Positions 3,554 to 50,327 of a stretch of 64,000 nt of DNA are shown one piece after another (position 1 is the stretch's first letter; every line of letters starts with the position of its first letter). The notes under the pieces are model-generated. The model had not been told where the DNA came from, made no database searches, and saw only the letters and a list, made by a program, of their open reading frames with translations. Source of the stretch: Thauera chlorobenzoica (lineage in GTDB: Bacteria; Pseudomonadota; Gammaproteobacteria; Burkholderiales; Rhodocyclaceae); contig NZ_CP018839.1 in NCBI RefSeq assembly GCF_001922305.1, positions 2,046,001 through 2,110,000 on the forward strand. Direction: 5' to 3'. Both the position numbers and the translations under genes were made by a program.

Positions 3554-3757
3554 CGTCGAGGGGCACGGTCGATCGAGGCAGGGCGGCAGGCGCTGCCGGG
3601 GGCGGGCGGCGTCGGGCGGACCGGCGCGGGCGTCAATGTACCGTGAATCGGAGCGATGTGCGGCGAGTCGAGTGACGTGCGGAGCGGCGTGCGGGGGAGG
3701 GCCTGCTGCGCTCGTGGCCCGCAATCGGGCAAGCGGGAGGGGCGGTCGCCGGATGTG

Positions 3758-3790
3758 GCGACCGGATGCGCGGATCGGGCATCCGGTCGC
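3758..3790 (-). terminator. Strong stem-loop after the catabolic operon
   Basis: A perfect inverted repeat with 12-base arms (GCGACCGGATGC / GCATCCGGTCGC) around a 9-base loop, beginning 6 bases past the stop of the binding-protein gene. It lies where the 3' end of the long minus-strand operon should be. No T-run follows it, so it may act as a Rho-assisted stop or a 3' stabilising hairpin and not as a classical intrinsic terminator. Confidence 0.5.
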
Positions 3791-3796
3791 GGTGGC

Positions 3797-4948: not shown

Positions 4949-5013
4949 CGTTGTGCTCCTCCTTTGGTCGGAATGCTGATGGTGCTGCTGTGGTGCTCGG
5001 TGGCCGCGCCGGC

Positions 5014-8585: not shown

Positions 8586-8598
8586 CGTTCGCCCCTCC

Positions 8599-9064
<466 letters not shown>

Positions 9065-9081
<17 letters not shown>

Positions 9082-9934: not shown

Positions 9935-9943
9935 GCGGTTTCC

Positions 9944-11557
9944 TCAGAAGCGGATCGGTTCCTGGTAGCGGCCGAAGACCTTCACCAGCTCGCGGGTGAT
10001 CTCGCCGACGCTGGCATAGGCCTTGACCGCGTCGACGATCGCCGGCATCACGTTGGCGCCGTCGCGGGCATCGGCGCCGACGCGGGCGAGCGCGCGCGCC
10101 ACCGCGTCGGCGTCGCGCTCGGCGCGGACCTGGGCCAGGCTGGCGATCTGGGCGCGGGCGTCGTCTTCGTTGTAGGGGTGGAATTCGACCGGGTGCTCGT
10201 CCTCGTGCTCGTTGCGGTAGCAGTTGACGCCGACCTTGGGGAAGGCGCCCGACTCGATGTTCTGCTGCATCCGGTAGGCCTGGGCGGAGACCTTGGCCTG
10301 GATCGCCCCTTCCGAGATCAGCTTGACGATGCCGCCTTCGGCATCGGTCTCGGCGATGATTTCCTCCATCTTCGCGCGCATCTGGTTGGTCATCGTCTCG
10401 ACGTACCAGGAGCCGCCGAGCGGGTCGACGGTCTCGGTCAGCCCCATCTCCTCGATCAGGATCTGCATGGTGCGCAGCGAGATCCGTGCCGAATACTCGG
10501 TAGGAATGGTGTAGGCCTCGTCGTAGGAGCACAGCGCCATCGTCTGGGTGCCCGACAGGGCGCTGATCAGGGCGTAGTAGGCGCCGCGCACGATGTTCAG
10601 CTCGGGCTGCTCGAAGGTCAGCCCGCCGCCGCCGCCGGCGGCGATCATGCGCAGCCACATCGAGCCCGGGCTCTCCGCCTTGTATTCCTCCTTCATGATC
10701 TTGGCCCACAGGCTGCGCCCGGCGCGGAACTTCGCCACCTGCTCGAAGAGGTTGCCGAAGATGTTGAAGTTGTAGGACAGGCGGCCGGCGAACTCGTCGA
10801 CGTGGAGGCCGCGCCGGATCGCCTCGTCGGCGTAGGCGCGGGCGATGCAGAACGCGTAGGCCATCTCCTGCGCCGGGGTCGCCCCCGATTCGCGGATGTG
10901 ATAGCCGCAGACCGACACCGGGCTGTACTTGGGGGCGTGGCGGGCACAGTACTCGATGGTGTCGCCGACCAGCCGGATCGAGGGCTCGACCGGGAAGATC
11001 CAGGTGCCGCGGCCGATGAATTCCTTGAGGATGTCGTTCTGCGCGGTGCCGCGCAGTTTGGTGACGTCATAGCCGCGCTTTTCCGCCATCGCCAGGTACA
11101 TCGCGATCGCGATCGCCGCGGCGCCGTTGATCGTCATCGACACGGTGATCTTGTCGAGGTCGATGCCGTCGAAGGCGAGCTCGAAGTCGCGCAAGGTGTC
11201 GATCGACATGCCGACGCGGCCGATCTCGCCTTCGGCGAGCGGATCGTCCGAGTCGAGGCCGATCTGGGTGGGCAGGTCGAAGGCGACGTTGAGCCCGGTC
11301 TGGCCGTTGGCGATCAGGTACTTGAAGCGCTGGTTGGTGTCGCGCGGATTGCCGAAGCCGGCGTACTGGCGCATCGTCCATGGCTGCTTGCGGTACATCA
11401 GGCGGTGGATGCCGCGGGTGAAGGGGTATTCGCCGGGGGCGCCGATCATCGCCTCGCCGCCGCTGGCGTCGACGTCGGCCCGGGTGTACAGCGGCTTCAC
11501 TTCGAGGCCGGACTCGTTGATCACGGCTTTCGGTTCGACTGGGGCGCGGTCGTTCAT
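9944..11557 (-). CDS. Acyl-CoA mutase large subunit (methylmalonyl-CoA mutase family)
   Basis: 537 residues forming the TIM-barrel catalytic half of a coenzyme-B12 acyl-CoA mutase. Visible signatures are WTMRQYAGFGNPRDTN, GLNVAFDLPTQIGLDSDDP and ISALSGTQTMALCSYDEA. The Tyr in RQYAGF is at a position known to shape substrate choice in this family. The B12-binding domain is a separate gene directly upstream, as in isobutyryl-CoA-type mutases. In the auxin pathway a mutase converts (2-aminophenyl)succinyl-CoA to (2-aminobenzyl)malonyl-CoA; that role is inferred from the operon. Start at 11557, overlapping the small-subunit stop by 4 bases. Confidence 0.86.
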   Translation of the reverse strand: MNDRAPVEPKAVINESGLEVKPLYTRADVDASGGEAMIGAPGEYPFTRGIHRLMYRKQPWTMRQYAGFGNPRDTNQRFKYLIANGQTGLNVAFDLPTQIGLDSDDPLAEGEIGRVGMSIDTLRDFELAFDGIDLDKITVSMTINGAAAIAIAMYLAMAEKRGYDVTKLRGTAQNDILKEFIGRGTWIFPVEPSIRLVGDTIEYCARHAPKYSPVSVCGYHIRESGATPAQEMAYAFCIARAYADEAIRRGLHVDEFAGRLSYNFNIFGNLFEQVAKFRAGRSLWAKIMKEEYKAESPGSMWLRMIAAGGGGGLTFEQPELNIVRGAYYALISALSGTQTMALCSYDEAYTIPTEYSARISLRTMQILIEEMGLTETVDPLGGSWYVETMTNQMRAKMEEIIAETDAEGGIVKLISEGAIQAKVSAQAYRMQQNIESGAFPKVGVNCYRNEHEDEHPVEFHPYNEDDARAQIASLAQVRAERDADAVARALARVGADARDGANVMPAIVDAVKAYASVGEITRELVKVFGRYQEPIRF

Positions 11558-11970
11558 GGGGCGTTCTCCCGGATGTAGGACACCACCGCCTCGAGCCGCG
11601 AACCGGTGGGAAAGATGCCCGCGAAGCCCAGTTCGCGCAGGGCGCCGTGGTCCTGGGCGGGCAGGTTGCCGCCGATCATCCACAGCTTGTCGGTGAGGCC
11701 GCCGGCTTCGAGCAGGGGCTTGAGCTTGCGGCAGAAGGGCAGGTGCGAGCCGGCCATGCTCGAGAGCGCGACGACGTCGACGTCCTCGTCGAGGGCGATG
11801 CGGGCGACCGCCTCCGGGGTCTGGCGCAGGCCGGTGTAGATGACCTCGAAGCCGGCGTCCATCATCGCGCGGGCGACGATCTTGGCGCCCTGGTCGTGGC
11901 CGTCGAGGCCGGGCTTGGCGAGCAGGACGCGGATCCGGCGTGCCGGCATCGCCGGGGTCGGTGAGCTCAT
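11554..11970 (-). CDS. Cobalamin-binding small subunit of the acyl-CoA mutase
   Basis: 138 residues, essentially a stand-alone B12-binding domain. The DxHxxG cobalamin motif is present as GLDGHDQGAK at about residues 21-30, with the His that replaces dimethylbenzimidazole as lower Co ligand, and the conserved SSMAGSH and IGGNLPAQD segments follow. It pairs with the large subunit encoded downstream. Start at 11970 overlaps the preceding acyl-CoA dehydrogenase stop by 4 bases. Confidence 0.9.
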   Translation of the reverse strand: MSSPTPAMPARRIRVLLAKPGLDGHDQGAKIVARAMMDAGFEVIYTGLRQTPEAVARIALDEDVDVVALSSMAGSHLPFCRKLKPLLEAGGLTDKLWMIGGNLPAQDHGALRELGFAGIFPTGSRLEAVVSYIRENAP

Positions 11971-13100
11971 GCGCTGACCTCCTTTGCAATGATGAGCTTG
12001 AGAATTTCGCTGGTGCCGCCACCGATCAGGGTGAAGCGGATGTCGCGCAGGTAACGCTGCACCGGGTACTCCATCGCGTAGCCGTAGGAGGCGAACACGC
12101 GCGCGGCCTGGTCGCACACGGTGGCCGCGGTCTCGGTGGCGAACAGCTTCGCCATCGCCGCCTCCTTGTGGTGGGGGCGGCCGGCGCCGTGCAGCCAGGC
12201 GGCATAGTGGACGAGGTGGGTGGCGGCCTCGAGGCTGGTCGCCATCTCGGCGAGCTTGAGCTGGATCGCCTGGAAGCGGTCGATCGGCTTGCCGAACTGG
12301 ACGCGCTCGCCGGCGTAGCGCACCGCCTCGGCGAGTGCGGCGCGCGCGCCGCCGAGCGCCATCGCGCCGGTGAGGATGCGGATCTCGGCGAGAGTCTTCC
12401 TGAGGTGGGCTTCGCCGTCGCCTTCCTCCTTCGACAGGCGGTGGCTGTCGGGCACGAAGCAGTCGTCGAAGGCGAGCTCGGAAGTCGGCAGCGCCCACAC
12501 GCCCATCTTGTGGATCGCGCGCCCGATGACGAGGCCGGGGAAGTCCTTCTCGACGAGGAAGATCGTCAGCTTTTTCTCCTCGCCGGCGCGCGCGAACACG
12601 GTGAAGAAATCGGCCACCGGGGCAGCGGTGATCCAGGTCTTGCGCCCGTTGAGGACGTAGCCGCCGTCGACCTTGCGGGCCTGGGTGGCGATGCCCGCGA
12701 GGTCGGAGCCGGCGCCCGGTTCGGTCATGCAGATCGCGCCGATCTTGTCGCCGGCGAGGGCGGGCTTGAACAGGCGCTCGATGATGTCGGGGCTGCCGAG
12801 TATGTGGAGGAACTTCGTGCCCATCAGCGACTGCATCGCCGCCGCCCCGGCGAGCGACATCGAGCCGCGCGCGATCTCGGCGAGGGCGAGGCAGTACTCG
12901 GTGAGGCCGAGTCCGCTGCCGCCGGCCTCCTCCGGGTAGCGCATGCCGACAAAGCCGAGCGCGGCCAGTTCGCGCATCAGCGCGCGGGGATAGGCGCGGG
13001 CCTCGTCGAGGGCGGCGGCCTGGGGGGCGATGCGCGTGTCGCAAAAGCGCGCGAAGGTGTCGCGGATGGCCTGCTGTTCTTCGTTCAGATCGAAGTCCAT
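11967..13100 (-). CDS. iaaF: Acyl-CoA dehydrogenase, candidate benzylmalonyl-CoA-type dehydrogenase/decarboxylase
   Basis: 377 residues of the flavin acyl-CoA dehydrogenase fold: CMTEPGAGSD (FAD and substrate contact, about residue 123), RKTWITAAPVAD, and FGKPIDRFQAIQ. The usual Y-E-G-T that carries the catalytic Glu is replaced by GGGTSEI, so the base must lie elsewhere, as in isovaleryl-CoA dehydrogenase; a Glu in the LAEIRI helix is a candidate. In the auxin pathway an enzyme of this class (IaaF) oxidatively decarboxylates the benzylmalonyl-CoA intermediate to a cinnamoyl-CoA. The symbol comes from that comparison. It overlaps the small mutase gene by 4 bases. Confidence 0.8.
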   Translation of the reverse strand: MDFDLNEEQQAIRDTFARFCDTRIAPQAAALDEARAYPRALMRELAALGFVGMRYPEEAGGSGLGLTEYCLALAEIARGSMSLAGAAAMQSLMGTKFLHILGSPDIIERLFKPALAGDKIGAICMTEPGAGSDLAGIATQARKVDGGYVLNGRKTWITAAPVADFFTVFARAGEEKKLTIFLVEKDFPGLVIGRAIHKMGVWALPTSELAFDDCFVPDSHRLSKEEGDGEAHLRKTLAEIRILTGAMALGGARAALAEAVRYAGERVQFGKPIDRFQAIQLKLAEMATSLEAATHLVHYAAWLHGAGRPHHKEAAMAKLFATETAATVCDQAARVFASYGYAMEYPVQRYLRDIRFTLIGGGTSEILKLIIAKEVSA

Positions 13101-37111: not shown

Positions 37112-37213
37112 GCCTATGCTTTCCAGTGCCCGGACTTGCCCCCCAGTTTTTCCAGCAACTGGATGCCGTCCATGCGCATGCCGCGGTCCACCGCCTTGCA
37201 CATGTCGTAGATC
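37112..37213. repeat. attL: 102-base direct repeat holding the displaced moaC 3' end
   Basis: Base-for-base identical to 48288-48389. It carries, on the minus strand, the last codons of moaC through the stop. Here it has no upstream coding part and is a remnant left at the far side of the element. Outside it lies the original moaC downstream flank running to the cyclic-di-GMP gene. Confidence 0.92.
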
Positions 37214-37578: not shown

Positions 37579-37800
37579 TCAAACGGATTTGACCAACACC
37601 ATCACACTTGCAAGCCAGCCCCGTAAAGCCCTCACGCCTTGCGAGTTGCCGACCCACTCCCGCGAAGGGCGGGCAAGTTGGTTCGGAGGCAGGTCGGGAT
37701 ATTTCCGCAGCAGGTCGGCGCGAAGCTTGTCCGCCTCCAGCCGCTTGCGCACCTTGAACCGGCGCCGGTTCTCACTCCAGGTCCGGCAAGGCTTCGGCAT
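37579..37800 (-). CDS. Hypothetical small basic protein
   Basis: 73 residues, Arg/Lys-rich (ENRRRFKVRKRLEADKLRADL), with a hydrophobic end. I recognise no family. It starts inside the last 29 bases of the preceding gene, which suggests translational coupling in a small minus-strand operon running from the regulator at 38433. Confidence 0.45.
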   Translation of the reverse strand: MPKPCRTWSENRRRFKVRKRLEADKLRADLLRKYPDLPPNQLARPSREWVGNSQGVRALRGWLASVMVLVKSV

Positions 37801-38173
37801 CGCGTGCGTCCTCGTTCGTGCGGTGAAGCGCCATCAAGGTTGTGGTCAGCGCCTGCGAAGCGCGGATCGCCACCCCTTGCAGCTGGCGCGCCCGGTCCGT
37901 GTTGCGGGTTTCGGCCGCCTTGATGGTGTAGGCCGATACCACGCCTTCGAGCACGGCAATTTGATCGGCCAGCGCCTCCCGGATCGCCGCAGCGCTTCCG
38001 GCATCGCCGCCGGCAAGTTCTCGGTTGCGCCGGGCAAGGTGATCGAACGCTTGCCGGCCACAGACCAGCGGATCGCCGCCGGCCAGGACCGCAAGGGCGC
38101 GCGCTTTCGCTTGGCGGTGATCGATGGCGGGCGCCGCCTCAAGGTGTCCGCCAGGGTTGAGCAAGGCGCTCAT
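37772..38173 (-). CDS. Hypothetical helical protein
   Basis: 133 residues, Ala/Leu/Arg-rich and predicted mostly helical, with no cofactor or membrane motif. It overlaps the regulator stop by 4 bases (ATGA) and the next gene start by 29 bases. Function unknown; the arrangement suggests it is coexpressed with the regulator as an accessory replication or partition-type protein, which is only a guess from context. Confidence 0.55.
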   Translation of the reverse strand: MSALLNPGGHLEAAPAIDHRQAKARALAVLAGGDPLVCGRQAFDHLARRNRELAGGDAGSAAAIREALADQIAVLEGVVSAYTIKAAETRNTDRARQLQGVAIRASQALTTTLMALHRTNEDARDAEALPDLE

Positions 38174-38433
38174 GGCTGCGCCTCCCCGTCACCACCTAAC
38201 CGGTAGGCTTCGAAGGCTTCGTCGCTCAGCCCCGCCGCCGCTTGTCGGTCAGCGGCCAGGATCAGCCGTTCAAGAGTTTCGCGCCGGGTCATCCCCCGGT
38301 GCGCGGCCAGGCGGCTCAGGGCAAGGTGCGCGCCGCTTGCAAGCCAGGTGTTCAGCCGGTGCGCGCCTTCGCCCTCGGCTTTCTGGCGCGCGCGGTAGTC
38401 GCGCTGGCGTTCGGCGTTCGTTTTCGGTGCCAT
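38170..38433 (-). CDS. Small putative ribbon-helix-helix-like DNA-binding protein
   Basis: 87 residues: a charged N-terminus (TNAERQRDYRARQKAEG) followed by HRLNTWLASGAHLALSRLA, with a strand-helix-turn-helix pattern ending GMTRRETLERLI, as in plasmid regulators of the ribbon-helix-helix class. Its promoter carries two GTTAC-N3-GTAAC palindromes around the -10 box, so it is the best candidate for the repressor of the element's shared operator. First gene of a three-gene minus-strand operon. Confidence 0.6.
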   Translation of the reverse strand: MAPKTNAERQRDYRARQKAEGEGAHRLNTWLASGAHLALSRLAAHRGMTRRETLERLILAADRQAAAGLSDEAFEAYRLGGDGEAQP

Positions 38434-38445
38434 CGGTCGGAGTCC

Positions 38446-38489
38446 GTTACAAGGTAACAGGGCGATTGTAGCACGGGTTACGGCGTAAC
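38446..38489 (-). promoter_or_regulatory. Paired GTTAC-N3-GTAAC operators around a -10 box
   Basis: GTTACAAGGTAAC (38446-38458) and GTTACGGCGTAAC (38477-38489) are 13-base palindromes 31 bases apart. On the minus strand a TACAAT -10 box (38465-38470) lies between them. The site sits 13 bases before the start of the small regulator gene, the arrangement expected for autoregulation. Confidence 0.65.
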
Positions 38490-38672
38490 GGTTTCTGGTT
38501 TCCCCCGATGGCGGTGGAAGTCGAAGGCACGGCGGTTTTCATGTATCAGTGCAAGGGTTTCAGCTACGGTAGCGCCGTGATACTGGTCAACAAGTATGTC
38601 GTTCGAGATATTTCGGATGGATGTAAGATGAGTATTTTAATGAAAATGTTCTATGTACTGGTCAAGGGCTGG

Positions 38673-39074
38673 TCATTTAAAGTGATCAGTCTCGGGGCAT
38701 GGGTACGTTATGTATTTCTTGAGGATGGTCGGCCGCGGCTTCCGCTCAATCTCTTCATAAGCCACTGTCCAGATGAACGTACGGTCACCGGTGTACCCGC
38801 CGAATTTATTCTTAGCGTTAACCTGCCCAATAAACCTGTACCCCATACGACCATCACTCAAGGGCCCGTTGTCAAACGTCACACAAGTGAACACGGCGCT
38901 TCCCGGGTCGAGTAGCTGGTCAGCCACCCCCTTTCGGATTTCAAGCCAGAGCTTCTTCTCCTGCGGTGTCGGGATGGAGCTATTGAACAAGTCGGGGCGC
39001 GCTACGTATGTAGCCGCTGCGGCTACGAGTGATATGGCGGCCAGTGAGAGAGGGATGAGGATTTTCTTTTTCAT
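38673..39074 (-). CDS. Hypothetical protein with N-terminal membrane anchor
   Basis: 133 residues starting MKKKILIPLSLAAISLVAAA, a signal peptide or single membrane anchor, then a soluble domain with VFTCVTFDNGPLSDG and GYRFIGQVNAKNKFGG, which may be exported. I recognise no family. AT-rich codon use sets it apart from the chromosome. An ATG at 39083 is an alternative start. A near copy of the element's operator lies about 100 bases upstream (39174-39186). The 239 bases between it and the regulator gene hold only that gene's promoter region. Confidence 0.6.
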   Translation of the reverse strand: MKKKILIPLSLAAISLVAAAATYVARPDLFNSSIPTPQEKKLWLEIRKGVADQLLDPGSAVFTCVTFDNGPLSDGRMGYRFIGQVNAKNKFGGYTGDRTFIWTVAYEEIERKPRPTILKKYITYPCPETDHFK

Positions 39075-39134
39075 GGGGGGCATTTTGTTGCCAGATTGGC
39101 GGAGTGGGTTTAAGTGTGGGTTAATCAAGCTTGC

Positions 39135-39322: not shown

Positions 39323-39666
39323 CCTGAACATGCCGATGTTCAGGAGCATGTTCAGCCAAGTTCAGGGGCATGTTCAGGGTGGGCAAACAGGCTGAAACCC
39401 GCGCCGTTACAGGGTTTTTAATATTCCAAGTGCATAATCCTGAACATCTGAACTTAGATGCGGGGGGGAGGGGCAAAAAAAAGCATATACAAGTGCGGTG
39501 CCGTAGTGCCGTACAGCCGATATTCGTTTTCTTCAGCCATACCCCGCAAACAAGTTCAGATGTTCAGGGGTTTGGCTGAAACCCTTGCCAGCACTGGGTT
39601 TCAGCCCCTGAACATATGCCTGAACATCGTTTTTGGATGTTCAGATGTTCAGGGGGCATGTTCAGG
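39323..39666. repeat. Iteron array, putative replication origin of the element
   Basis: About 14 copies of the heptamer TGTTCAG (or GTTCAG with one change) in both orientations: 39323, 39337, 39349, 39359, 39371, 39439, 39448, 39553, 39561, 39607, 39619, 39638, 39646 and 39659. Neighbouring copies are 8 or 10-13 bases apart, close to one helix turn in the first cluster. AT-rich stretches lie between clusters. The array sits right behind the primase-helicase gene, the classic place for an iteron origin; satellite phage P4 has GGTGAACA-type iterons read by its own primase-helicase. Confidence 0.72.
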
Positions 39667-39701: not shown

Positions 39702-41021
39702 TCAGCGATGGGCCGGGACCACGGCCCATGTCGTGCCCTTGTATGAGGTGCCGACCTTGAGCAGCTTCAAGCCCTCGACCACGCGCCCAGCGTTACTGCG
39801 CAGCCAGCAGCCGAGCGCGTACCCGTCAATGTCCTCGCCCCTGCCGGCGAGCTCACCGAGCAGATGGCGCAGCGGATCGCTTGTCCCGCGCACGGTCGTC
39901 CAAATATCCTTGACCGTCACCGGCTCCAGGCCGAACTTGCCGTGCCACGCATGCAGCAATAGGCCCAGGACGATGCGCTCGTCGTCGTCCTCGACCGCCG
40001 CCGCCACCCTGCCGACCGGATCAGGCAGCCCGGCGCCGACCACGACCGAGAGCACGGCCGATGACCACGGCCCGAACGAGGCGAACGGCCCGACCTCAGC
40101 GCGCACGCCTTGCAGAGCGCAGAGCGCAACCCCGACCCATCGGCCGCGCTCGCGCCGGACACGCTCGACGGGATCGTCCTTGAAGACGCGCCGGACCGTG
40201 CCGCCCGGTGAAACCAGTTCGCAGACCAGCGAGCGCCGGATCATGTCACCTTGCGGGGCCACGTTATTGCCGTTCCCTACGACCAGAACCCGGGCCGATG
40301 CGTTTTGCATGGTCGAACTGCCGAGCACGCGACCGCTCACCTTGCCTTCGGAAATCGCAGTACAGAGCACTTCGTCATCCAGGCCGCTGCCCGTCTTCAA
40401 GTTGTCGAGGAACAACACTTGCCGACCGTCGAGCAATGCCGCGTGCAGCGTCTTCATGCGCTCTTCCCGCCTCGAAGGCCAGGGGATCGGCTCCACCTCC
40501 GGGCAAGCGAATAGAGAAACCAGTTCGCACAGATAGCCCTTGCCCGTTCCCGCCTCGTTAGCAGTAACGATGAAGGCGGGAGCCGCCTTGTAGTTCGGCC
40601 TCGACACTGCGGTGAGGATCGCGCACAACGCCACCGCCCGGTCAGCTTCGGAGTTGAACGAAAACTCCGTAAGCAGCGACCGAAGTTCGGTCATCGCTTC
40701 GGCGGGCGTACCCTCGAATGCTGGGAAGGCTACAGGAAGGAAGCTTCCTTCGTACCCTTCAGGGATGCCGATAGATCCGTCAGGCAACAACGTCGGCTGG
40801 GTCGCCACTCCAACAAGCTCGGGAACTCCGGGCCACTCGCCGAACGTCAATACCGCGTTCAGGATCTGAACATCCGGCCTCGTGTTGCCTTCGCCCGTCC
40901 TCCACCGCGCAACGCTGGAGAGCAGATAACCCAGCTTCGGCAGATCCACGGGCCAGATCCTGCCGCCTCGAAGCTCGACCAACTTGCCGCACCGCTGTTG
41001 AAGCGTCGGGATATGCGCTAG
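39702..41021 (-). pseudogene. Primase-helicase gene, 3' fragment (helicase part)
   Basis: Encodes the C-terminal 437 residues of the broken protein. It contains the ATPase core: a P-loop-like TANEAGTGKGYL, Walker B VLFLDN, and GNNVAPQGDMIRRSL, a sensor/arginine-finger segment typical of plasmid and phage primase-helicases. The first residues after the insertion read LAHIPTLQQRC and join the upstream fragment in frame. It has no start codon of its own at the junction; any expression would need a start inside or read-through from the IS. Confidence 0.85.
41014..41021. repeat. IS66 target-site duplication, left copy
   Basis: TGCGCTAG, identical to 43455-43462 on the other side of the insertion. 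Eight bases is the normal duplication length for IS66-family elements. Confidence 0.92.
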
Positions 41022-41109
41022 GTAACCGGTAACTGAGCGGCGTCCTTCTCGCGGCGTAGCGATCGTTGAATAATTCTCGCCATGTTCAACGACGACGGGA
41101 TTGGCAGTG

Positions 41110-41421
41110 ATGGCATCGACGGTGAGGAGCAAATGGCGGCGACGCGGCCACGAGGAATGGCGGGCGGTGTTCGATCGCTTTGCGGCAAGCGGTCTGAGCA
41201 TCCGGCAGTTCTGCGACAGCGAGGGCTTGAGCAAGTCGAGTTTCGAGCGCTGGCGCGGCCTGCTGGCCGGTGAGGCGTCGAGCGTCGCCGATCGCGGCGA
41301 TGCGTGCGCTCGTGCGGGCTTTGTCGATGCGGGCCTGGTCGACGTTGGCGGCGGTGCAGGCCGGCTCGAGCTCAAGCTCGATCTGGGTGGCGGTGTCGTG
41401 CTGCATCTGGTGCGCGGCTGA
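41110..41421 (+). CDS. tnpA: IS66 accessory protein TnpA
   Basis: 103 residues with the helix-turn-helix-like segment SIRQFCDSEGLSKSSFERW of IS66 TnpA. Probably helps bind the IS ends. A TTG at 41101 is an alternative start. The stop overlaps the tnpB start as TGATG. Confidence 0.8.
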   Translation: MASTVRSKWRRRGHEEWRAVFDRFAASGLSIRQFCDSEGLSKSSFERWRGLLAGEASSVADRGDACARAGFVDAGLVDVGGGAGRLELKLDLGGGVVLHLVRG

Positions 41422-41780
41422 TGTTCTTCCCCGAAGGGGCGGTGCGGGTGCATGTCTATGGCCGCCCGGTTGACATGCGCAAGTCCTTCGATGGGCTGTA
41501 CGCGCTCACCCGCCACGCACTTGGGTGCGATCCGCTGTCGGGCGAGCTGTTCGTGTTCATCAACCGGCGCGGCACGCAGATGAAGGTGCTGTACTGGGAT
41601 CGCAGCGGCTTTTGCGTGTGGGCCAAGCGCCTCGAGCAGGGACGGTTCGTGTCCGACTGGTCGCGGGTGCTCACTCGCCAGATGGACTGGACCGGGCTGA
41701 AGCTGTTGCTCGAAGGCATCGAGCCGGCGCGCTTCAAGCGCCGTTTCAAGCTCCCGGAAGTGGCCGCCAAGCCCGCATGA
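41421..41780 (+). CDS. tnpB: IS66 accessory protein TnpB
   Basis: 119 residues. The typical TnpB segments RPVDMRKSFDGLYALT, LFVFINRRGTQMKVLYWD and FCVWAKRLEQGRF are complete. Required with TnpA and TnpC for transposition in this family. Its stop overlaps the tnpC start as ATGA. Confidence 0.93.
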   Translation: MFFPEGAVRVHVYGRPVDMRKSFDGLYALTRHALGCDPLSGELFVFINRRGTQMKVLYWDRSGFCVWAKRLEQGRFVSDWSRVLTRQMDWTGLKLLLEGIEPARFKRRFKLPEVAAKPA

Positions 41781-43426
41781 ATGCTGGGTTTTACGGTAAA
41801 ATTCCGGCCATGACGACGCCCGTTTCGCTGACCGTTCCGACGCCCGCCGAGGCCGCCCGCTGGGCGCCCGAGCAAATCGTCGCACTGGCCCAGGCGAACG
41901 CGGCCGCCGCCCGCCAACTCGATGCCCTGCAGCTCGAGTTCCAGGCGATGAAGCATCAGATCGAGTGGTTCCGGCGCCAGCTCTTCGGGGCGAAGAGCGA
42001 GAAGCGCATCGTCGATGCGAGCCCGCATCAGATGAACCTGGGCGAGTTGCCGGTGCCCGAATCCTCGCCGCCGCCCCCTGCCAAGGACATCGCCGCCCAC
42101 ACCCGCCGGGCCCGCACCACCGATTACGCGGCGGGCGACGCATCGGCGCTGTTCTTCGACGAAGCCCGCGTGCCGGTCGAGACCATCGCCGTGGCGAACC
42201 CGGAAATCGACGGGCTCACCGCCGACCAGTTCGAGGTGATCGGCGAGAAGGTCAGTCACCGCCTGGCACAGCGCCCGGGCAGCTACGTGATCCTCAAGTA
42301 TGTGCGTCCGGTGATCAAGCGCCTCGACACCCAGGCGATTTCCTGCCCGGCGGCACCCGAGGGGGTGATTCGCGGCAGCCGCGCCGATGTGAGCTTCGTC
42401 GCCGGGCTCATCACCGACAAGTTCTGCTACCACCAGCCGCTGTACCGCCAGCACCAGCGGCTCGGGGACAACGGCATCAAGGTTTCGCGCCCGTGGCTCA
42501 CGCAGCTCACTCACGGGGCGCTGTCGCTGCTCGAACCCATCTTTACGGCCCAACTCGACTCGATCCGCGCGAGCCGCATCAAGGCGATGGACGAGACCCC
42601 GATCAAGGCCGGCCGGGCCGGCCCGGGCAAGATGAAGGGCGGCTACTTCTGGCCGGTCTATGGCGAGCGTGACGAAATCTGCTTCGCCTATCACGAGGGG
42701 CGCAGTGGCAAGCACATTGCGCAGACCCTGGGCACCGACCCGCCGCCCGAGGGGGCGGTGCTGCTTACCGATGGCTATGCGGCCTACGAACGCTACGCGG
42801 AAAAATGCGGGCTCACGCACGCGCAATGCTGGGCGCACTCGAGGAGGAAGTTCTTCGATGCGCAGGCGCTCGAGCCCGAGCGTGCGGGCCAGGCGCTGGA
42901 GATGATCGGAAAACTGTACGCGGTGGAGAAGCACATCCGCGAGGCCAGGCTCGTCGGTGAGGCACGCCGCGCGCATCGGCTCGCGCAGGCCAAGCCCGTG
43001 CTCCAGCAGTTCTTCGCCTGGGTCGACGCCCAGTTCGAATCCCAGGGCCTGTTGCCCAGCTCACCGCTCACCACCGCCATGGCGTACGTGCGCGAGCGCC
43101 GGGCCGCCCTCGAGGTGTACCTCTCCGATCCCGAGGTGCCGATCGACACCAACCATCTGGAGCGGGCGCTACGCGTGGTGCCGATGGGCCGTCGCAACTG
43201 GCTCTTCTGCTGGACCGAGGTCGGGGCAAAGTACGTGGGCATCGCGCAGAGTCTGATCGCCACCTGCCGCCTGCACGACATCGACCCCTATACGTACCTG
43301 GTCGATGTGCTCCAGCGCATCGGCCAGCATCCGGCCGCCAACGTGGCGCAGCTCACCCCAAGGCTGTGGAAGCAACACTTCGCGGCCAATCCGCTGCGAT
43401 CCGATCTCTTCGAAATCTCGAAGTAG
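41777..43426 (+). CDS. tnpC: IS66 transposase TnpC
   Basis: 549 residues. N-terminal coiled coil with FRRQLFGAKSEKR, a Cys-rich-type middle reduced to one CPAAP region, and the DDE catalytic residues in KAMDETPI, LLTDGYAAYERY and TNHLERALRVV. The ATG at 41777 couples it to tnpB; an ATG at 41810 is an alternative. Intact. Confidence 0.93.
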   Translation: MNAGFYGKIPAMTTPVSLTVPTPAEAARWAPEQIVALAQANAAAARQLDALQLEFQAMKHQIEWFRRQLFGAKSEKRIVDASPHQMNLGELPVPESSPPPPAKDIAAHTRRARTTDYAAGDASALFFDEARVPVETIAVANPEIDGLTADQFEVIGEKVSHRLAQRPGSYVILKYVRPVIKRLDTQAISCPAAPEGVIRGSRADVSFVAGLITDKFCYHQPLYRQHQRLGDNGIKVSRPWLTQLTHGALSLLEPIFTAQLDSIRASRIKAMDETPIKAGRAGPGKMKGGYFWPVYGERDEICFAYHEGRSGKHIAQTLGTDPPPEGAVLLTDGYAAYERYAEKCGLTHAQCWAHSRRKFFDAQALEPERAGQALEMIGKLYAVEKHIREARLVGEARRAHRLAQAKPVLQQFFAWVDAQFESQGLLPSSPLTTAMAYVRERRAALEVYLSDPEVPIDTNHLERALRVVPMGRRNWLFCWTEVGAKYVGIAQSLIATCRLHDIDPYTYLVDVLQRIGQHPAANVAQLTPRLWKQHFAANPLRSDLFEISK

Positions 43427-43454
43427 GCAAGGACGCCGGGCAGTTACCGCTTAC

Positions 43455-43462: not shown

Positions 43463-44737
43463 AGCGCGCATCGCGGAATCCACGCTGCCGCTGAAATCAC
43501 CGGCCGACACGGAAATCACAAGCCCGGTTCCGGGATCATACAGATCAGCCTTCAGTGCCCTGACGCCCACGCCCGCAGCACGGGCGCAGCGTTTCAGGAG
43601 CGCCTCCGCCTCAGTTTTGCTCAGCGACTCATCGCGCTGGATCTGGCGCGCGATCGTTACCACGTCGCGCGGTCCTTCCACAGCGTCGAGCAGTTCCACG
43701 TAGTCCGGCGCCTCGTCGTCAGGATCGGCCTCCAGCCCTTGAAGATCCGGCTTGACGCCAGCCGGCAGGATCGAGCACAGGCCGCCGACCGAAAACGTGT
43801 AGTCCGGGTTCGACTCGCAGTAGTGGAACTTCTGAACAAGCTCGCGCTCGCGCTTCTTCGGCGAGTTGTACCGCTGGCCGTCGCTTTCGTGGCGCTCGAT
43901 CAGGCCGCGCGCCTCATGAATCAGGCGGTCATCCGACCAGCCCAGGATATGCGCGAGCAGGGCCAGTTGGATGGCGATCTGGTTCCATCCGGCATCGGGC
44001 AGGAACTCGCCTTGCAACAATGCCTGCACCGATGGCGGGGCCGCACCCTCGAACCGCCTGCGGATCTCGGCTTCGGCCGCCGAAAACGTTTTCGGCCGCT
44101 TCGCATCGACCTCCACCTTGTCCCGCGCGGCTCTGAACATCGCCGCCAGCTTCGGAGCGAGCACAGGGGTACGGAGTTCGGGCCACGCTCGGGGGGCGCT
44201 GCACAGATCCTCGAACCGTTCGGGCGTCATCGACCGCGCTTCGGCCACGGTCAGCGGCACCTTGAACAAGCCGTTCGAGCGCTGGACGTGGGGCACTCGC
44301 CACATGCGACCACGACCCGAGCTATAGACCCGCATGTCCAGCGTATCGACGTACAGACCCAGGGCCATCGCCTTATAGATTTTCGGCAACTCGATATGGT
44401 CGCAGCCGCCGAACACAGCCGCAGGCACCTCGACATGGAACCCACGGCCACCCGTTGCGAAGATGCGCACGGATTCCAGATCCACATCAGCCGCTTCCAA
44501 CTTGTCGAGGAACTCTCGGACCTTGTGACACACCTCGTCAAGGTCGCCGTCGAAGTCCGCATAGAAGGGTCCGCTATATAGATCCCCGGTTTTTCCAAGG
44601 ATCGTGCGGAAAGCCGGGGGCGCTTCGCCTTCCAGAAGTTCGGCCAGTTCTTCACGGCTTACGGACTGCCACGTCGATTCCCCGGCCGCCCACTCATAGG
44701 TTTCGGCCGTCAGTTCTAGGTGCGGATCAATTCTCAT
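43455..44737 (-). pseudogene. Primase-helicase gene, 5' fragment (AEP primase part)
   Basis: Encodes residues 1-427 of an archaeo-eukaryotic-type primase. Motifs: YADFDGD (metal-binding D-x-D), FATGGRGFHVEV (the s-x-H motif) and the Arg-rich MRVYSSGRGRMWRVP. The IS end adds one Gln and a TAA, so a 428-residue primase domain could still be made without the helicase. The start MRIDPHLELT at 44737 overlaps the HTH gene by 11 bases. Excising the IS and one duplication gives 865 codons to the stop at 39702. Confidence 0.85.
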
Positions 44738-44972
44738 GATGGGCACCTTCCAACGCATACACACCTTGCCGGTGAAGCACGCCTTCGGCGTCAGCGACGT
44801 AGCGCCAGACCGTTTTGATGGCGTAGCCCATGCGTCGAAGTTCGGCCACGCGGCCGGCGGGGTGCATGATTCCAAGGCGCTCGCGCGCCTCCGAAGTGGC
44901 GATCGGTCCTTCGCAGGCCATGGCGGTCATGATGCGTTGACGCTGCAACGCCTTCGATTCGGCGGGCCTCAT
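44727..44972 (-). CDS. Small helix-turn-helix protein
   Basis: 81 residues with a winged-helix pattern: QRQRIMTAMACEGPIATSEA then RERLGIMHPAGRVAELRRMG, as in phage and plasmid HTH proteins that read specific ends or operators. It lies directly before the primase and overlaps it by 11 bases, and overlaps the upstream gene by 4 bases. It may help load the primase at the origin or regulate the operon; neither is shown. Confidence 0.65.
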   Translation of the reverse strand: MRPAESKALQRQRIMTAMACEGPIATSEARERLGIMHPAGRVAELRRMGYAIKTVWRYVADAEGVLHRQGVYALEGAHHEN

Positions 44973-45517
44973 TTCGAACCCCGCTCGGCGAGTTCGAGGA
45001 TCGCTTGCGCCAGCCCGGCCAGGTGATCGGCCGCAAGCGCCGCGGAGACATCAACCCCTTGCCGCTCCGCGCGCAGCAACCAATGCTCAGTCAGATCCAC
45101 GAGCAGCCAAAGTTCGCGCGTCGGTTCGACCATGAACCGCTTGTGGTCGGTCAGCTTCGCCACGGCATCGAAGACGGCAGGCTCGGCTTGAACCCCGATC
45201 GAGCCTAGAGCCGCAAGGGCCAGGCGCCCGCTATCGGAGAGCGCACGCATCGGCACAGGCTGCACACCTTCAGGCGCCGCGTCGGGGTGAAGCACTGCGC
45301 CGCTCTCGTCGCGCGGCAGCTGCAACCTGCGCAGGGTCTCATCGAGGTGGCCCAGGTCGAGCAGGACTCCGTGATAATTCGGGTGCCCCTTGCCGTGCCG
45401 CAGGATGTTCAGGACCCGTTCGCTGTCGTCGTCCAAGATGCAGGCCAGCGCGCCCAGCCAGTCGGCAAGCTGTGCGTCGCTCGTTGCGGGTTTCCAGGGG
45501 TTTACTTTTGTTTTCAT
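44969..45517 (-). CDS. Hypothetical element protein
   Basis: 182 residues, no recognised family. Acidic and Leu-rich with WLGALACILDDDSERVLN and DLTEHWLLRAERQGVDVS; no membrane segment. First gene of the primase operon. The ATG at 45517 has AAGGAA upstream; a longer frame from 45568 lacks such a site. Mid-length soluble proteins of this kind are common in element replication operons. Confidence 0.6.
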   Translation of the reverse strand: MKTKVNPWKPATSDAQLADWLGALACILDDDSERVLNILRHGKGHPNYHGVLLDLGHLDETLRRLQLPRDESGAVLHPDAAPEGVQPVPMRALSDSGRLALAALGSIGVQAEPAVFDAVAKLTDHKRFMVEPTRELWLLVDLTEHWLLRAERQGVDVSAALAADHLAGLAQAILELAERGSK

Positions 45518-45585
45518 GACGGCAGTTCCTTCTTTGGGAGGGTTCGCCGTTGATCGTAAAGCCGTCATGAAAACCGATCATCCGA

Positions 45586-46470
45586 TCACCCGATGGATCG
45601 TCGGGCCGATGATTTTGTCATAGGTAACGCCGCCTCAGATCCGCCTTGAGATAGCCGCGCCACCCCCTCAATCGTGCGCCTTGCACGCGCCTCCAGGCCA
45701 GCGCGCAGGACGGTTTCGAGCGCGGCCACCTTGTCGGCACGGGCGCCGGTTTTCTTATCCGCAAATGTGATCGCCTCGTCGTGGCTGTTCTTCAGGTGCG
45801 CGGCCCATTCGTCCCGTGCTCGGTGCATGGGCAGAAGCGATGGATCGACCTTGACCGGGCCGTCTGCGGTTTGAAGTTCTTCGGCCCCCTCGAAGTCGTC
45901 ACCAACGGTTGCCGCGAGCAGCAGGGCATCGACAAGCATTTGCGCGCTGCATTCCGTGAGCGCGACCGTCTGCTTGTCGTCGCGCCATCCGAGGTCGGCG
46001 GCGTAGGGGCCGCCGCTCAGGGCCTCGAAGCCGCCCCGCAGGGTCTGCACCAGGTTCAGGCGCTTCTCCCACGCCGCGTCCTGCGTCGCGTACCGTGGAG
46101 CCGTGCCATAGCGCTTGCGTGCTGGCGTCGGCTCGGTCACAGGGTCCGCTTGATCGCCCGGAGGCGCAGCCGCCGCGCCAGACCTCACGGCATCGGCCAA
46201 CACTTGCGCGTTCGCGCGGTGTCGCGCTTCGGCCTCGATGGCTTCGGCCATCCGGCGAAACGGTGCTGGATCAACAAGGATGGCGCCTTCAGGCGCCGCA
46301 CCGCCTGAATGCCGAGCCGCACTTGCCTGTGCAGCATCAAGCATCGCTTGCCGGTCGGGTTGTGCCGCCAGGATCTCGCGCGCCACCGCTTGACGGTCGG
46401 TAGCTCCCGCTTTTTTTGTGGTGTCGGAATCGGTGCCGGCCTGCGCAGGCCGCAAAGGAAGATTTGCCAT
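45586..46470 (-). CDS. Hypothetical element protein, Ala-rich
   Basis: 294 residues. N-terminal half is Ala/Gln-rich and probably disordered; the second half contains KRLNLVQTLRGGFEALSGGP and a helical C-terminus ending in basic residues. No family recognised. Its promoter region carries a perfect GTTAC-N3-GTAAC operator at 46603-46615, so it is likely controlled with the element's regulator operon. Confidence 0.58.
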   Translation of the reverse strand: MANLPLRPAQAGTDSDTTKKAGATDRQAVAREILAAQPDRQAMLDAAQASAARHSGGAAPEGAILVDPAPFRRMAEAIEAEARHRANAQVLADAVRSGAAAAPPGDQADPVTEPTPARKRYGTAPRYATQDAAWEKRLNLVQTLRGGFEALSGGPYAADLGWRDDKQTVALTECSAQMLVDALLLAATVGDDFEGAEELQTADGPVKVDPSLLPMHRARDEWAAHLKNSHDEAITFADKKTGARADKVAALETVLRAGLEARARRTIEGVARLSQGGSEAALPMTKSSARRSIG

Positions 46471-46602
46471 GATGCCCTCGTCATCGGCGCCCCCACGGAA
46501 GGTGTGGTGTGCCGGGCAGGGCGGGGGCGCACCCTTTTCGCTCCGTCGAGCTAGCCCGGCACGTTGAGCATAAGCGTTCTTTATAGCTCAGCGCAAGAAC
46601 AA

Positions 46603-46615
46603 GTTACGCAGTAAC
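46603..46615 (-). promoter_or_regulatory. Third GTTAC-N3-GTAAC operator
   Basis: GTTACGCAGTAAC, the same symmetry and spacing as the pair at 38446-38489. It lies 133 bases before the gene starting at 46470; TTGCGC-18-TATGCT can be read as a minus-strand promoter between them. Confidence 0.55.
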
Positions 46616-46620
46616 AGCCA

Positions 46621-47103
46621 TCAAGCGGCCATGCGTGCCACCGGCCGCACCCCGGTAGCTTCACCCGAGCGCGCCAGCCCGGCCACGAGCACGAACACGT
46701 CAGCAGCCGATGCCGCGTCCTCGTGCTCAGTCTGCAATCCGGCCTGATCGAGCACGTCCTCGCGGATCTGGTTGCGCCAGGCCGCGAGCACGCACAGCGC
46801 CAGCCGGCCGACCGCTTGCAACACCTCGTCAGCGTCCAGTCCGGCCAGACTTACCCCATGACAAGCGAAACGCGAGTCCAGCCCGGTGATGCGCTCGAAC
46901 TCGTCATCGTCCAAGGACTCGCCGCGCCCCTCATCGATTACCCACGCCTGCATCGCAGCCAGCGGGTTCGCCTGCGATCCGGCCAGCCAGGAACCGGCCA
47001 CGGCAGGCCGCCAGGCTTCCAGGCGCGCGGCTGTTTCGTCGTCGAACGTGCGGCCGTTCGCGTTCAGGTCCAGGGCGGAAACGAGGGCGTCAAAGTTTTT
47101 CAT
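46621..47103 (-). CDS. Hypothetical element protein
   Basis: 160 acidic residues (SLDDDEFERITGLDSRFACHG and EHEDAASAADV). No family recognised and no membrane segment. It follows the integrase on the same strand after a stem-loop, with a TGGAGA ribosome-binding site. It could be a small integrase-linked modulator, but nothing in the sequence shows that. Confidence 0.58.
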   Translation of the reverse strand: MKNFDALVSALDLNANGRTFDDETAARLEAWRPAVAGSWLAGSQANPLAAMQAWVIDEGRGESLDDDEFERITGLDSRFACHGVSLAGLDADEVLQAVGRLALCVLAAWRNQIREDVLDQAGLQTEHEDAASAADVFVLVAGLARSGEATGVRPVARMAA

Positions 47104-47159: not shown

Positions 47160-48155
47160 TCAGGCGACAGCAGCGGCCAGACGGTCGGCCAGCCTTTCGG
47201 CGTTCGGGTGGTAATACCGCTTGAGCATTTGAAGGGACTTGTGCCCGGTCACGGCTGACAGTTCGGCCAAGTTGGGCAGCTTCTCAGACAATCGCGTTGT
47301 GGCGGTATGTCGCAGGTCGTGGAGTCGCAGCTCGTCGATTCCTGCCCGCTTGCACGCAAGCTTGAACCGCAAATGCAGGGCTGGCGCAGAGATCGGAAAC
47401 ACGCTTCCGTCAATTGATCGCGGCAGATGGCGCAAGGTGTCGATTGCACGTGGCGACAGCGGCACAAGGCGCCGTGTGCCGTTCTTGGTGTCGGGTAGTA
47501 GGGCCGTGCGCTTGTCGAGACTGACATGCTCCCACCGCAGCGCAAGCAGTTCGCCGCGCCGCATGGCGGTTTCCAGTGCAAGGATGATGATCGGTTGCAG
47601 CCAGGGACTACGGCGTCCGACAGGGGCCGATGCGGTCAACAGCCGCGCTTCCTCGTCATCGGATAGCACGCGCTCGCGCCCTTGAGGCTGCCGCGGCTTG
47701 CGGATCGACTGGACGGCGTTTTCAACCGGAAAGCCCCACTCCCGGCGTGCGTGGTTCAGAACCGACGAGAGCAGCGCCAGATCCCGCAGCACGGTTGCCG
47801 CCGATACAGCCCGCAAGCGTTCGTCGCGGAACTTCGCCACTGCGGCAGCACTGAGGTTCGCTAGTGCGTATTTCCCCAGCTTGTTGGCGCGAAGGGCGTT
47901 TAGCCGGATGGCTTCGTCCTTAGCCCCCTTCTTGCCGGGGCTTACCTCTTCGGCATATCTCGCCAGGATGTCGGCCAGGCTTGTCCGCTCGACTGATGCA
48001 CGGTTCTGATGCGTGCCGCGGTCCATCGCCACTTCGATGGACCGCGCCCATGTTTCCGCTTCCGCCTTCGTTGCGAAGGACTTGGTTTCTGGCGGGAAAC
48101 CGTGCCGTGTTACACGGCACTGCCACCGATCCCCACGCCGCCGAATTGATGCCAT
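47160..48155 (-). CDS. int: Tyrosine recombinase (integrase) of the element
   Basis: 331 residues. An N-terminal arm-binding type region (MASIRRRGDRWQCRVTRHG), a SAM-like core-binding domain, and the catalytic domain with Arg in ETAMRRGELLALRW, HDLRHTATTRL (H-x-x-R), TGHKSLQMLKRYYH (second His and the nucleophilic Tyr). The start at 48155 is preferred over 48242 because the longer frame runs through the TTGGACA sites. It lies 133 bases inside the right repeat, the normal place for an integrase beside its att site. Confidence 0.92.
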   Translation of the reverse strand: MASIRRRGDRWQCRVTRHGFPPETKSFATKAEAETWARSIEVAMDRGTHQNRASVERTSLADILARYAEEVSPGKKGAKDEAIRLNALRANKLGKYALANLSAAAVAKFRDERLRAVSAATVLRDLALLSSVLNHARREWGFPVENAVQSIRKPRQPQGRERVLSDDEEARLLTASAPVGRRSPWLQPIIILALETAMRRGELLALRWEHVSLDKRTALLPDTKNGTRRLVPLSPRAIDTLRHLPRSIDGSVFPISAPALHLRFKLACKRAGIDELRLHDLRHTATTRLSEKLPNLAELSAVTGHKSLQMLKRYYHPNAERLADRLAAAVA

Positions 48156-48167
48156 CGTAGCCCCCAG

Positions 48168-48185
48168 TTGGACATACGATGGACA
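48168..48185. repeat. Arm-type integrase sites, right end
   Basis: TTGGACA (48168-48174) and ATGGACA (48179-48185), 11 bases apart, the same word and spacing as the three copies at the left end. They lie in the integrase promoter region, so integrase may also regulate itself. A 7-base-arm stem-loop (48215-48234) sits between these sites and the right repeat. Confidence 0.6.
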
Positions 48186-48287
48186 GAACCAACACTTGGG
48201 CCTATCAGAGCCGTGAAGGGGTTCTAGCCCCTTCGTGGGCAAAGTCTAGAAGCGAGAACCCGACCCTGTTTAAACTCAATGGGTTAG

Positions 48288-48389
48288 GCCTATGCTTTCC
48301 AGTGCCCGGACTTGCCCCCCAGTTTTTCCAGCAACTGGATGCCGTCCATGCGCATGCCGCGGTCCACCGCCTTGCACATGTCGTAGATC
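48288..48389. repeat. attR: 102-base direct repeat forming the moaC 3' end
   Basis: Identical to 37112-37213. Its minus strand supplies the last 33 codons and stop of the present moaC, so the element restores the gene it entered. The identity stops sharply at both edges. Confidence 0.92.
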
Positions 48390-48778
48390 GTGAGCAGGCC
48401 GACGTTGACCGCGGTGAGCGCTTCCATTTCCACCCCGGTGCGGCCGACGGTCTCGGCAGTGACGGTGCAGCGCACGGCGGATTCGGCTTCGTCGAGGGCG
48501 AACTCGACCGCGACCCGGGTGAGCGGGATCGGATGGCATAGCGGGATCAGTTCGCTGGTGCGCTTGGAGGCCTGGATCGCGGCGATGCGGGCGATGCCGA
48601 TGACGTCGCCTTTCTTCGCCGTGCCGGACTCGATCATCGCGAAGGTGTCGGGGCGCATCAGGATGCGGCCGCTGGCGACGGCGACGCGGCGGGTCTCGGC
48701 CTTGGCGCCGACGTCGACCATGTGGGCCTGGCCGTCGGCATCGAAATGGGTCAGCGGGTTCGGAGTGCTTGCGGTCAT
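48290..48778 (-). CDS. moaC: Cyclic pyranopterin monophosphate synthase
   Basis: 162 residues, full length. Marks: [12 protein letters not shown] (substrate pocket), [21 protein letters not shown], and [14 protein letters not shown] at the end. It makes cyclic pyranopterin in the first steps of molybdenum and tungsten cofactor synthesis. Its 3' 100 bases come from the integrated element's att copy and appear intact. Divergent from the M48 protease gene. It serves the Mo and W enzymes encoded in this window. Confidence 0.94.
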
Positions 48779-48896
48779 GTTGGGCTGGGGTGAAGAGCGT
48801 GGGCGTGGGTTGCATCCGGTGCCGGTGCGGCGGCCGGCTACAGATGGATACAGGCGCATGGGAACGTGCGCAGGCGGGCGGGTATCATAGCACTCC

Positions 48897-50327
48897 ATGA
48901 TGCGCCGACCTCTTGCCCTGCTGCTCAGCCTCGTGCTGGCCTTCCCCGTCCACGCCCTCGATCTGCCCGATCTTGGCGACGTTGCTGCCTCCGAGCTGTC
49001 GCCCGCTGCCGAGCGCAGCATCGGCGAGCAGATCATCCGCGAGATCCGGCGGGACGCGGCCTATCTGGACGATCCCGAGATCGAGGAGTATGTCGGTCGG
49101 CTCGGCCACCGCCTGGCGGCGGCCAGCGGCAGTCCGGCGCAGGGTGTCGACTTCTTCGTCGTGCGTGACGCCACGCTCAACGCCTTCGCCCTGCCCGGGG
49201 GTTACATCGGCATCCATACCGGCCTGCTGCTGGCGGCGCAGAGCGAATCGGAGCTGGCCTCGGTGCTTGGCCACGAGATCGCCCACGTCACCCAGCGCCA
49301 CATCGCCCAGATCGTCGGCAAGCAGAGCCAGTCGGCGATGCTGATGGTGGCTTCGCTGCTGGTGGCGGTGCTCGCCGCGCGCAGCAACTCCCAGGTCAGC
49401 GAGGCGGCGATCGCCGCCGGCCAGGCCGGGGCGATCCAGTCCCAGCTCGGCTACACCCGCGCCTTCGAGCGCGAAGCCGACCGCGTCGGTCTGGAAACGC
49501 TGGAGGCCGCCGGTTTCGACGTGCGTGGCATGCCGGGCTTTTTCGAGCGCCTGCAGCGGGCGATCCGGGTGTACGAGAACAACGCGCCGGCCTATCTGCG
49601 TACCCACCCGCTCACCACCGAGCGCATCGCCGACATGGAGAACCGCGTCGCCTCGATGCGTTACCGGCAGGTGCCCGACTCGCCCGGCTTCGCCTACGCG
49701 CGCGCCAAGCTGCGCGCCGGCAACGGCTCCGCCACGGATGCGGTGCGCGAACTCGAAGACCAGGTCGCGCGCCATGCGCAGGACCCCGCGCTCACCTACG
49801 GACTGGCGCGCGCGCTGTTGCGCGCGGGGCGGGCGGAAGAGGCGGCGCAGCGCCTGGAGGCGGCGCGCACCCTCGCTGAGCCCTCGCCCTGGCTGGAAAC
49901 GCTCGCGGGCGAAATCCGCCTCGCGCGTGGGGAGGGCGCCGCCGCGATCCGCGGGTTGGAGGCCGCGCGCGAGCGCTTTCCCGATAGCCGCAGCCTGATC
50001 TATGCGCTCGCCGAAGCGCGTATCGTGGGGGGCGAGCCGGCGCAGGCCGAGCGCGAACTGCGTCAAACGGTGGCCCGCCGCAGCGACGATGCGCGGCTGT
50101 GGCGCTTGCTGTCGCGTGCCAATGCGGCGCTGGGTCAGCGCACCGCGCAGCATCGGGCGCAGGCCGAGCTGTATCTGCTGCAAGGCAGCCTGCCGGCGGC
50201 GATCGAGCAGCTCGAGATCGCCCGCCGCGCCGGCGACGGCGATTTTTACGCGCAGTCGGCGGTCGATGCGCGCCTGCGCGAACTGCAGCAGCGCCTGCGC
50301 GAGGAGCGCCGCGAGCGCCTGCACTGA
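48897..50327 (+). CDS. M48 family periplasmic metalloprotease with TPR repeats (BepA-like)
   Basis: 476 residues: signal peptide (about 1-20), zinc motif HEIAH at 126-130 with the third ligand Glu in the FEREADRVG segment, then tetratricopeptide-like helices to the C-terminus. Such proteins (BepA/YfgC) watch over outer-membrane protein and LPS assembly. ATG at 48897 (a second ATG follows at 48900). Divergent from moaC. Confidence 0.88.

Follow-up and report, generated by a model that had tools for sequence, protein, structure and literature searches.

Is the dense cluster of the heptamer TGTTCAG found behind a primase-helicase gene of Thauera chlorobenzoica the replication origin of an integrated element? 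The locus lies in a 64,000 nt stretch of contig NZ_CP018839.1 (the window), and coordinates throughout are positions in this window, numbered from its first letter. The cluster sits directly 3' of a gene for an archaeo-eukaryotic-type (AEP) primase and D5/SF3-like helicase, between the stop of this minus-strand gene (39702) and small cargo open reading frames (ORFs), in an element of 11.2 kb integrated at the 3' end of moaC. We hold with high confidence that it is an origin of an integrative element, of the known pri-rep-ori type.

An iteron array unique in its genome

Counting confirmed the position, density, both orientations and spacings (8 and 10–13 bases) given for the cluster in an original prediction made from the letters of this stretch; neighbouring same-strand starts within clusters are 8, 10, 12 or 13 bases apart. 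The fourteen copies claimed there are correct for the hexamer GTTCAG (n=14 in 342 bases, nine on the plus and five on the minus strand), but the full heptamer accounts for 11 of the 14, the remaining three being AAGTTCAG. A genome-wide count, proposed at the same time, found 392 copies of TGTTCAG (206+186) in one contig of 3,735,506 bases, with 0.036 expected per 344 bases (Poisson P=3e-24 for the array). Same-orientation pairs 0–6 bases apart occur at four places in the genome, all of them within the array; the window holds one TGTTCAG cluster only, and equal density elsewhere was not seen. The spacers, described as AT-rich, are so relative to the window (53 % GC over 400 bp, against 61–75 % in most 1 kb blocks) but not in absolute terms, with 40 % GC in the most AT-rich 60 bp. 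The iteron array is real and unique within its genome. Known RNA families matched the array below threshold only, and comparison of the array DNA with plasmids and phages gave nothing useful.

The layout matches published origins of phage-inducible chromosomal islands (PICIs). According to PMC6092414, such origins follow pri-rep immediately on its 3' side, an AT-rich region being flanked by two sets of iterons, and a cloned PICI rep-ori segment reportedly replicates. The window has the same arrangement as the SaPIs and EcCICFT073: an integrase at one end with an att site and flanking repeats, a primase-helicase gene and, directly 3' of it, two iteron sets around a core (Table 1). It differs from PICIs in its AEP-type primase and its word TGTTCAG, and possibly in its dyads; no AlpA/Stl or terS match was found among the scanned ORFs.

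A possible sequence of events follows from this layout. The element would be excised by its tyrosine integrase, and the primase-helicase would bind the TGTTCAG iterons; we infer that the array is read by the C-terminal, winged-helix-like domain of this neighbouring protein. A D5/SF3-like hexamer would then assemble on the core, which has iteron pairs of opposite orientation on its two sides, and melt the DNA there, after which the AEP domain would synthesise primers. The dyads on either side would add a second part to the origin, one that does not depend on the word.

Table 1. Features of the integrated element and its insertion site in the window
Feature	Position	Strand	Remarks
Iteron array, proposed origin	39324..39665	both	14 GTTCAG (11 TGTTCAG + 3 AAGTTCAG), by counting
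Origin core	39440..39567	both	two tandem iterons, spacer of about 100 bp, two tandem iterons inversely oriented
Dyad 1	39576..39604	-	CTGAAACCC-N11-GGGTTTCAG; sole site of this form (loop 5–20) in the genome
Dyad 2	39394..39418	-	AAAACCC-N11-GGGTTTC; one mismatch against GAAACCC-N11-GGGTTTC
C-terminal part of primase-helicase	39702..41013	-	D5/SF3-like helicase and predicted winged-helix-like end; gene broken
IS66-family insertion	41022..43454	+	TnpA, TnpB, transposase; splits the primase-helicase gene; 8 bp target duplication on both sides
N-terminal part of primase-helicase	43463..44926	-	AEP-type primase domain; open frame, start codon uncertain
Small winged-helix protein	44727..44972	-	HTH_39; upstream of the primase, overlapping its open frame
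Three ORFs (span 44969..47103)	44969-45568, 45586-46470, 46621-47103	-	no Pfam family
Tyrosine integrase	47160..48245	-
att direct repeat, integrase-side element end	48288..48389		inside moaC
moaC open frame, insertion target	48290..49036	-	Pfam PF01967 (E 9.6e-57), TIGR00581
att direct repeat, array-side element end	37112..37213		copy of moaC 3' end
Small cargo ORFs past the array, inside the element (span 37775..39128)	38676-39128, 38173-38433, 37775-38173	-

The primase-helicase gene and its relatives

The primase-helicase gene predicted beside the array is present and of AEP type, but it is interrupted by the IS66-family insertion, and because of this interruption the present copy of the element is probably unable to replicate alone. 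The primase part matches the phrog_16345 primase (E 1.4e-26). Its motif residues D124, D126, H164 and D197 are invariant in seven aligned sequences and agree with the AEP superfamily signature, which comprises DxD, sxH and a third acidic motif; on the fold itself, the model of the N-terminal part reached a pLDDT of 42 only and the match to a PriS profile an E of 0.03 only. For the C-terminal part a D5/SF3-like helicase fold is predicted, with SaPI-type primase-helicases as the best solved folds. The helices and strands of its end would suit a winged helix like that of 1KA8, the C-terminal origin-binding domain of P4 alpha, but the residues well covered in the alignment are 1–347 only. Searches of the PDB by sequence gave weak or no matches. 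PMC5862659 describes mobile-element AEP families whose members end in a winged helix.

The original prediction also placed the word close to the iteron of satellite phage P4. This holds for its place and for six letters: the P4 iteron GTGAACA (seven copies in 350 bases) has TGTTCA in common with the window word, and the crr region of P4 likewise lies directly 3' of a primase-helicase gene. It does not extend to the proteins, which show no detectable kinship (blastp E 0.5; hhalign probability 9 %), and P4 alpha has Zn ribbon, Toprim, D5_N, DUF5906 and Pox_D5 domains whereas the Pfam domains of the window protein differ. In P4 the same iteron occurs in two separate cis regions, ori and crr; the window has one cluster. 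Membership of the P4 group was ruled out by the lack of detectable sequence kinship to alpha and the different domains.

Relatives of the helicase part occur in 15 of 199 genomes searched within the family (E 0.001), in 16 of 399 of the order and in 13 of 369 of the class (both E 1e-20), the own genome included each time, and in 14 plasmid and 40 phage records. Scans of genome and viral sequences that used only the helicase part gave nothing useful, nor did a scan with A1 as query. Fifty relatives (L035 left out) were checked for a word that recurs 3' of the gene, an array being called strong if its word count was at least two above the best shuffle. Strong arrays were detected in ten (L021, L032, L033, L034, L036, L045, L046, L061, L063 and L071) and weak ones in nine. 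L032–L034 are doubtful, as the counted word falls within the following ORF, which leaves seven of 50; another word, TTGCGGG, is present there in five or six copies 3' of the stop. The words of these seven are TGTGAGTC, GGTGACTT, GCGGGTAT, GCCGGGT, TGTCCACC, GGTGGCTT and AGTGGGTT, with just three copies 3' of the stop in L046. Among the weak arrays is that of the circular plasmid pA32H2 (6,547 bp), in which three copies, an AT-rich sequence and three inverted copies (one imperfect) follow the gene. As a separate observation, TGTCAG, often with TGACA nearby, lies 0–260 bp 3' of the helicase gene in L033, L045, L054, L057, L061, L063, L067 and L071; this is eight of 17 hand-chosen loci against 1.2 expected, and over all relatives ten of 51 against 5.2.

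The AEP primase family comprised nine distinct loci among all those fetched: the window, L021 (the same match as L165, from Methyloversatilis universalis EHg5), L258, L284, L285, L286, L259, L260 and L261. Arrays were present in five, the window included, each with its own word (TGTTCAG, TGTGAGTC, CTGTCTTG, TGTAGCCA and AGCGTTCC), and the helicases differ across the family, those of L258 and L285 being of D5_N/DUF5906 types. Five AEP-linked origins with five words would be a natural series on how a winged-helix end switches its word, and what was a repeat cluster without a name would become an origin family open to experiment. Two of these loci are of interest in themselves. In L286 (G100, 8482-12007) the primase is likewise split, other ORFs lying between its two pieces. 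In L258 (contig IMGVR_UViG_3300048598_000164) an integrase, an AEP primase, a D5-type helicase, an array and a terminase large subunit lie within 19 kb; this contig is possibly a small phage or satellite.

Equal density of the heptamer elsewhere in the genome, or relatives lacking both the array and the primase, had been named beforehand as refuting an origin; as worded, neither was borne out. Some relatives keep an array in place with changed words, but many have none (31 of the 50 helicase relatives; four of the nine primase-family loci). In the P4 record NC_001609 the region 3' of alpha is annotated as crr, which ends 45 bases 3' of the gene, and ori is a separate region; by analogy, the array might be only a cis-acting helper or a copy-control locus, with true initiation elsewhere in the element. 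We consider this improbable, since no other TGTTCAG cluster exists in the window and no close pairs elsewhere in the genome, and both iteron sets and the core are in one place, as they are in PICI origins. Iterons and dyads also resemble protein sites in general, and the array occupies an intergenic stretch where a gene cluster ends on its 3' side, as would suit an operator with many sites that controls transcription, or a stop of transcription after the primase gene. This is very improbable: simple consensus scans of the array found no promoter-like or terminator-like site, the array is downstream of a replication gene, and the free plasmid pA32H2 keeps a weak array in that place. An origin is well supported, the word being dense nowhere else in the genome and some relatives keeping an array at the same place.

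A dyad beside the iterons

Two dyads flank the core in the window (Table 1). The same order was observed in the window, L021 and L258: iterons, dyad, tandem iteron pair (+34/35 and +42/43), spacer, inverse pair (+142 to +157) and second dyad. One dyad each of L021 (the second) and L258 (the first) is degraded to four mismatches. GAAACCC-N11-GGGTTTC was present at up to two mismatches in all five array-bearing AEP loci (exact in the window, L021 and L286, with one mismatch in L258 and two in L285), and was not found at this level in the other four. Shuffled 600 bp regions held it in none of 2,600 cases at up to one mismatch and in three at two. Within 600 bases of the helicase gene, the dyad was found in the window and L021 only of 52 helicase loci, the window included. 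The contrast between AEP arrays (5/5) and other strong helicase arrays (0/9; Fisher P=5e-4; 0/6 and P=0.002 without L032–L034) initially suggested that the dyad belongs to the AEP primase family. This was ruled out by dyads with arrays beside D5_N/DUF5906 (L224), DUF5906 (L195, with an array of five copies), Zn ribbon plus Toprim (L376), Toprim plus AAA (L292) and DUF927 with Cch helix-turn-helix (L372) genes; as it stands beside unrelated replication genes, the dyad is therefore not tied to the primase of the window. In these loci it lies 70 (L224), 200 (L195), 60 (L376) and 218 (L372) bases past the gene stop, and across the last codons in L292. Outside the L165 and L258 contigs, the fetched stretches of dyad loci held no match to the window AEP profile. 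No such replication gene was found among the scanned ORFs of the stretches fetched for twelve further loci with dyad and array (L103, L149, L201, L218, L239, L249, L253, L294, L322, L323, L335 and L382).

A wider scan with the outer bases fixed and loops of 10–12 allowed returned at least 118 genome-contig stretches and 66 viral contigs. The 11-base loop dominated, with 83 of 119 genome-contig sites among the matches listed and 61 of 66 viral sites. There were 76 non-redundant loop-11 loci among the matches listed, of which 70 were long enough to be tested for an array (six or more copies of a single heptamer in 400 bp, a threshold that leaves L195 out). Arrays were found in 11 of these 70 as against six of 1,037 control windows, or in nine without the tandem runs of L097 and L100. 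Two later scans gave arrays in five of 56 and four of 12 new non-redundant loci against six of 502 controls; one of the four was the L258 contig again, without which the count is three of 11. Dyads occur in contigs of several phyla; those with arrays were observed in Betaproteobacteria and in viral contigs whose host is unknown.

A shared host factor may bind the dyad, the dyad may be used for priming, or it may be a coincidence. That it is a double-stranded site for a protein reading both arms is a serious possibility, though we rate it somewhat below an even chance. The protein would probably be the host's, because the same site occurs beside unrelated initiators. The dominance of the 11-base loop among the matches listed is consistent with this, as are the conservation of sequence rather than of pairing and the position of dyads with arrays at or up to 220 bases 3' of D5-type, Toprim, DUF927 and AEP genes. 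Against it, most dyad loci are without an array (59 of 70 among the matches listed; 51 of 56 in the later scan); only two of the 52 helicase loci have the dyad within 600 bases, and P4 has none at two mismatches. We know of no protein for this dyad. The register of iterons relative to it was weak: in 19 of 21 array loci (L173 dropped because its array is over 250 bases away, L382 on account of three mismatches in the dyad) the best 4 bp slot, +29 to +32, was occupied in 11, which was equalled in 12 of 2,000 random placements.

It is tentatively suggested, with slightly less assurance than for a protein site as such, that GAAACCC-N11-GGGTTTC acts in cis as a general component, whatever the initiator, of the iteron origins that phages and integrative elements carry. 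Word and replication protein (AEP, Toprim, DUF927/Cch or D5-type) would then swap freely while the dyad stays 3' beside the iterons, read by a conserved host factor or used in a shared priming step. The dyad may be an undescribed part of such origins; searches of open-access papers by its letters gave, among the matches listed, no title on a bacterial or phage origin and none with 'iteron', or no match at all. Should unrelated initiators share it as a part of their origins, some host function used by many mobile replicons would still await discovery.

A stem-loop priming site, exposed single-stranded like RSF1010 ssiA/ssiB or the pRN1 stem-loop, appears unlikely. As single-stranded DNA, dyad 1 of the window folds strongly as a hairpin (z=-3.8 on one strand and -4.1 on the other), as does L165 (z about -5.9). 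The archaeal plasmid pRN1 is also comparable, with an AEP primase-helicase that ends in a winged helix (a predicted one in the window) and, immediately 3' of its gene, an element that it needs; according to PMC4234260 this is a stem-loop of roughly 100 nt, whereas the window has iterons and short dyads. RSF1010 oriV, as described in PMC4234260, is similar in its iterons, melting region and paired hairpin-capable sites (ssiA/ssiB), but has three separate proteins. Dyad 2, in contrast, has no hairpin signal (z=0.05), and the arms do not covary. Over 15 sites, all at up to four mismatches and two of them overlapping readings of one site, one of 105 arm pairs was compensatory and 25 were broken, with pairing at 74 against 74.5 in shuffles; the right arm was better conserved (11 mismatches against 24 in the left). 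A fixed stem is thereby ruled out as the cause of the conservation.

Finally, the dyad could be a chance-prone terminator-like or att-associated palindrome that merely lies near origins. Most dyads are without an array, and some exact ones lie beside tmRNA or between chromosomal genes. The enrichment of arrays near dyads in all three scans argues against coincidence, as does the absence of dyads at up to one mismatch from shuffled regions, yet their presence in the window, L021 and L258. We therefore regard coincidence as doubtful, though more plausible than a priming site. Known RNA families in 13 dyad loci were tmRNA and tRNA only; in L072 and L122 (Stutzerimonas and Pseudomonas) the match to the tmRNA gene ends some ten bases from an exact dyad. 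Other exact dyads, their loops being GCATTCCTGCT or GCATGATTACT, were observed between small genes without a heptamer array (L191, L202, L204, L205 and similar viral contigs), and a 12-base-loop form, CTGAAACCC-TTGCYRYRGCAA-GGGTTTCAG, recurs in L083 (a Flavonifractor contig), L117, L130, L134 and L183.

The integrated element and its insertion site

The element is bounded by exact 102 bp direct repeats. The insertion keeps the moaC 3' end, because the second repeat copy sits in moaC, and the tyrosine integrase is located at the moaC end of the element. Its description as plasmid-like or satellite-like is reasonable but unproven: capsid, terminase and relaxase had no match among the scanned ORFs, nor did an AlpA/Stl-type regulator, interference or packaging genes (short ORFs left out), and the replication gene is split by IS66. 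The match of the small protein at 38173-38433 to a family of plasmid RepB proteins for copy control was non-significant (E 0.25).

In two genomes of the same genus, integrases 88 % (L281) and 73–74 % (L283) identical to that of the window adjoin moaC. L281 (G103, 2339-12870) has the moaC-end repeat and other cargo, with no tblastn match to either replication-gene part in the 19.5 kb fetched, and in L283 (G139) the related integrase lies at moaC near 9097-10722. The insertion site is therefore common to elements of unlike content.
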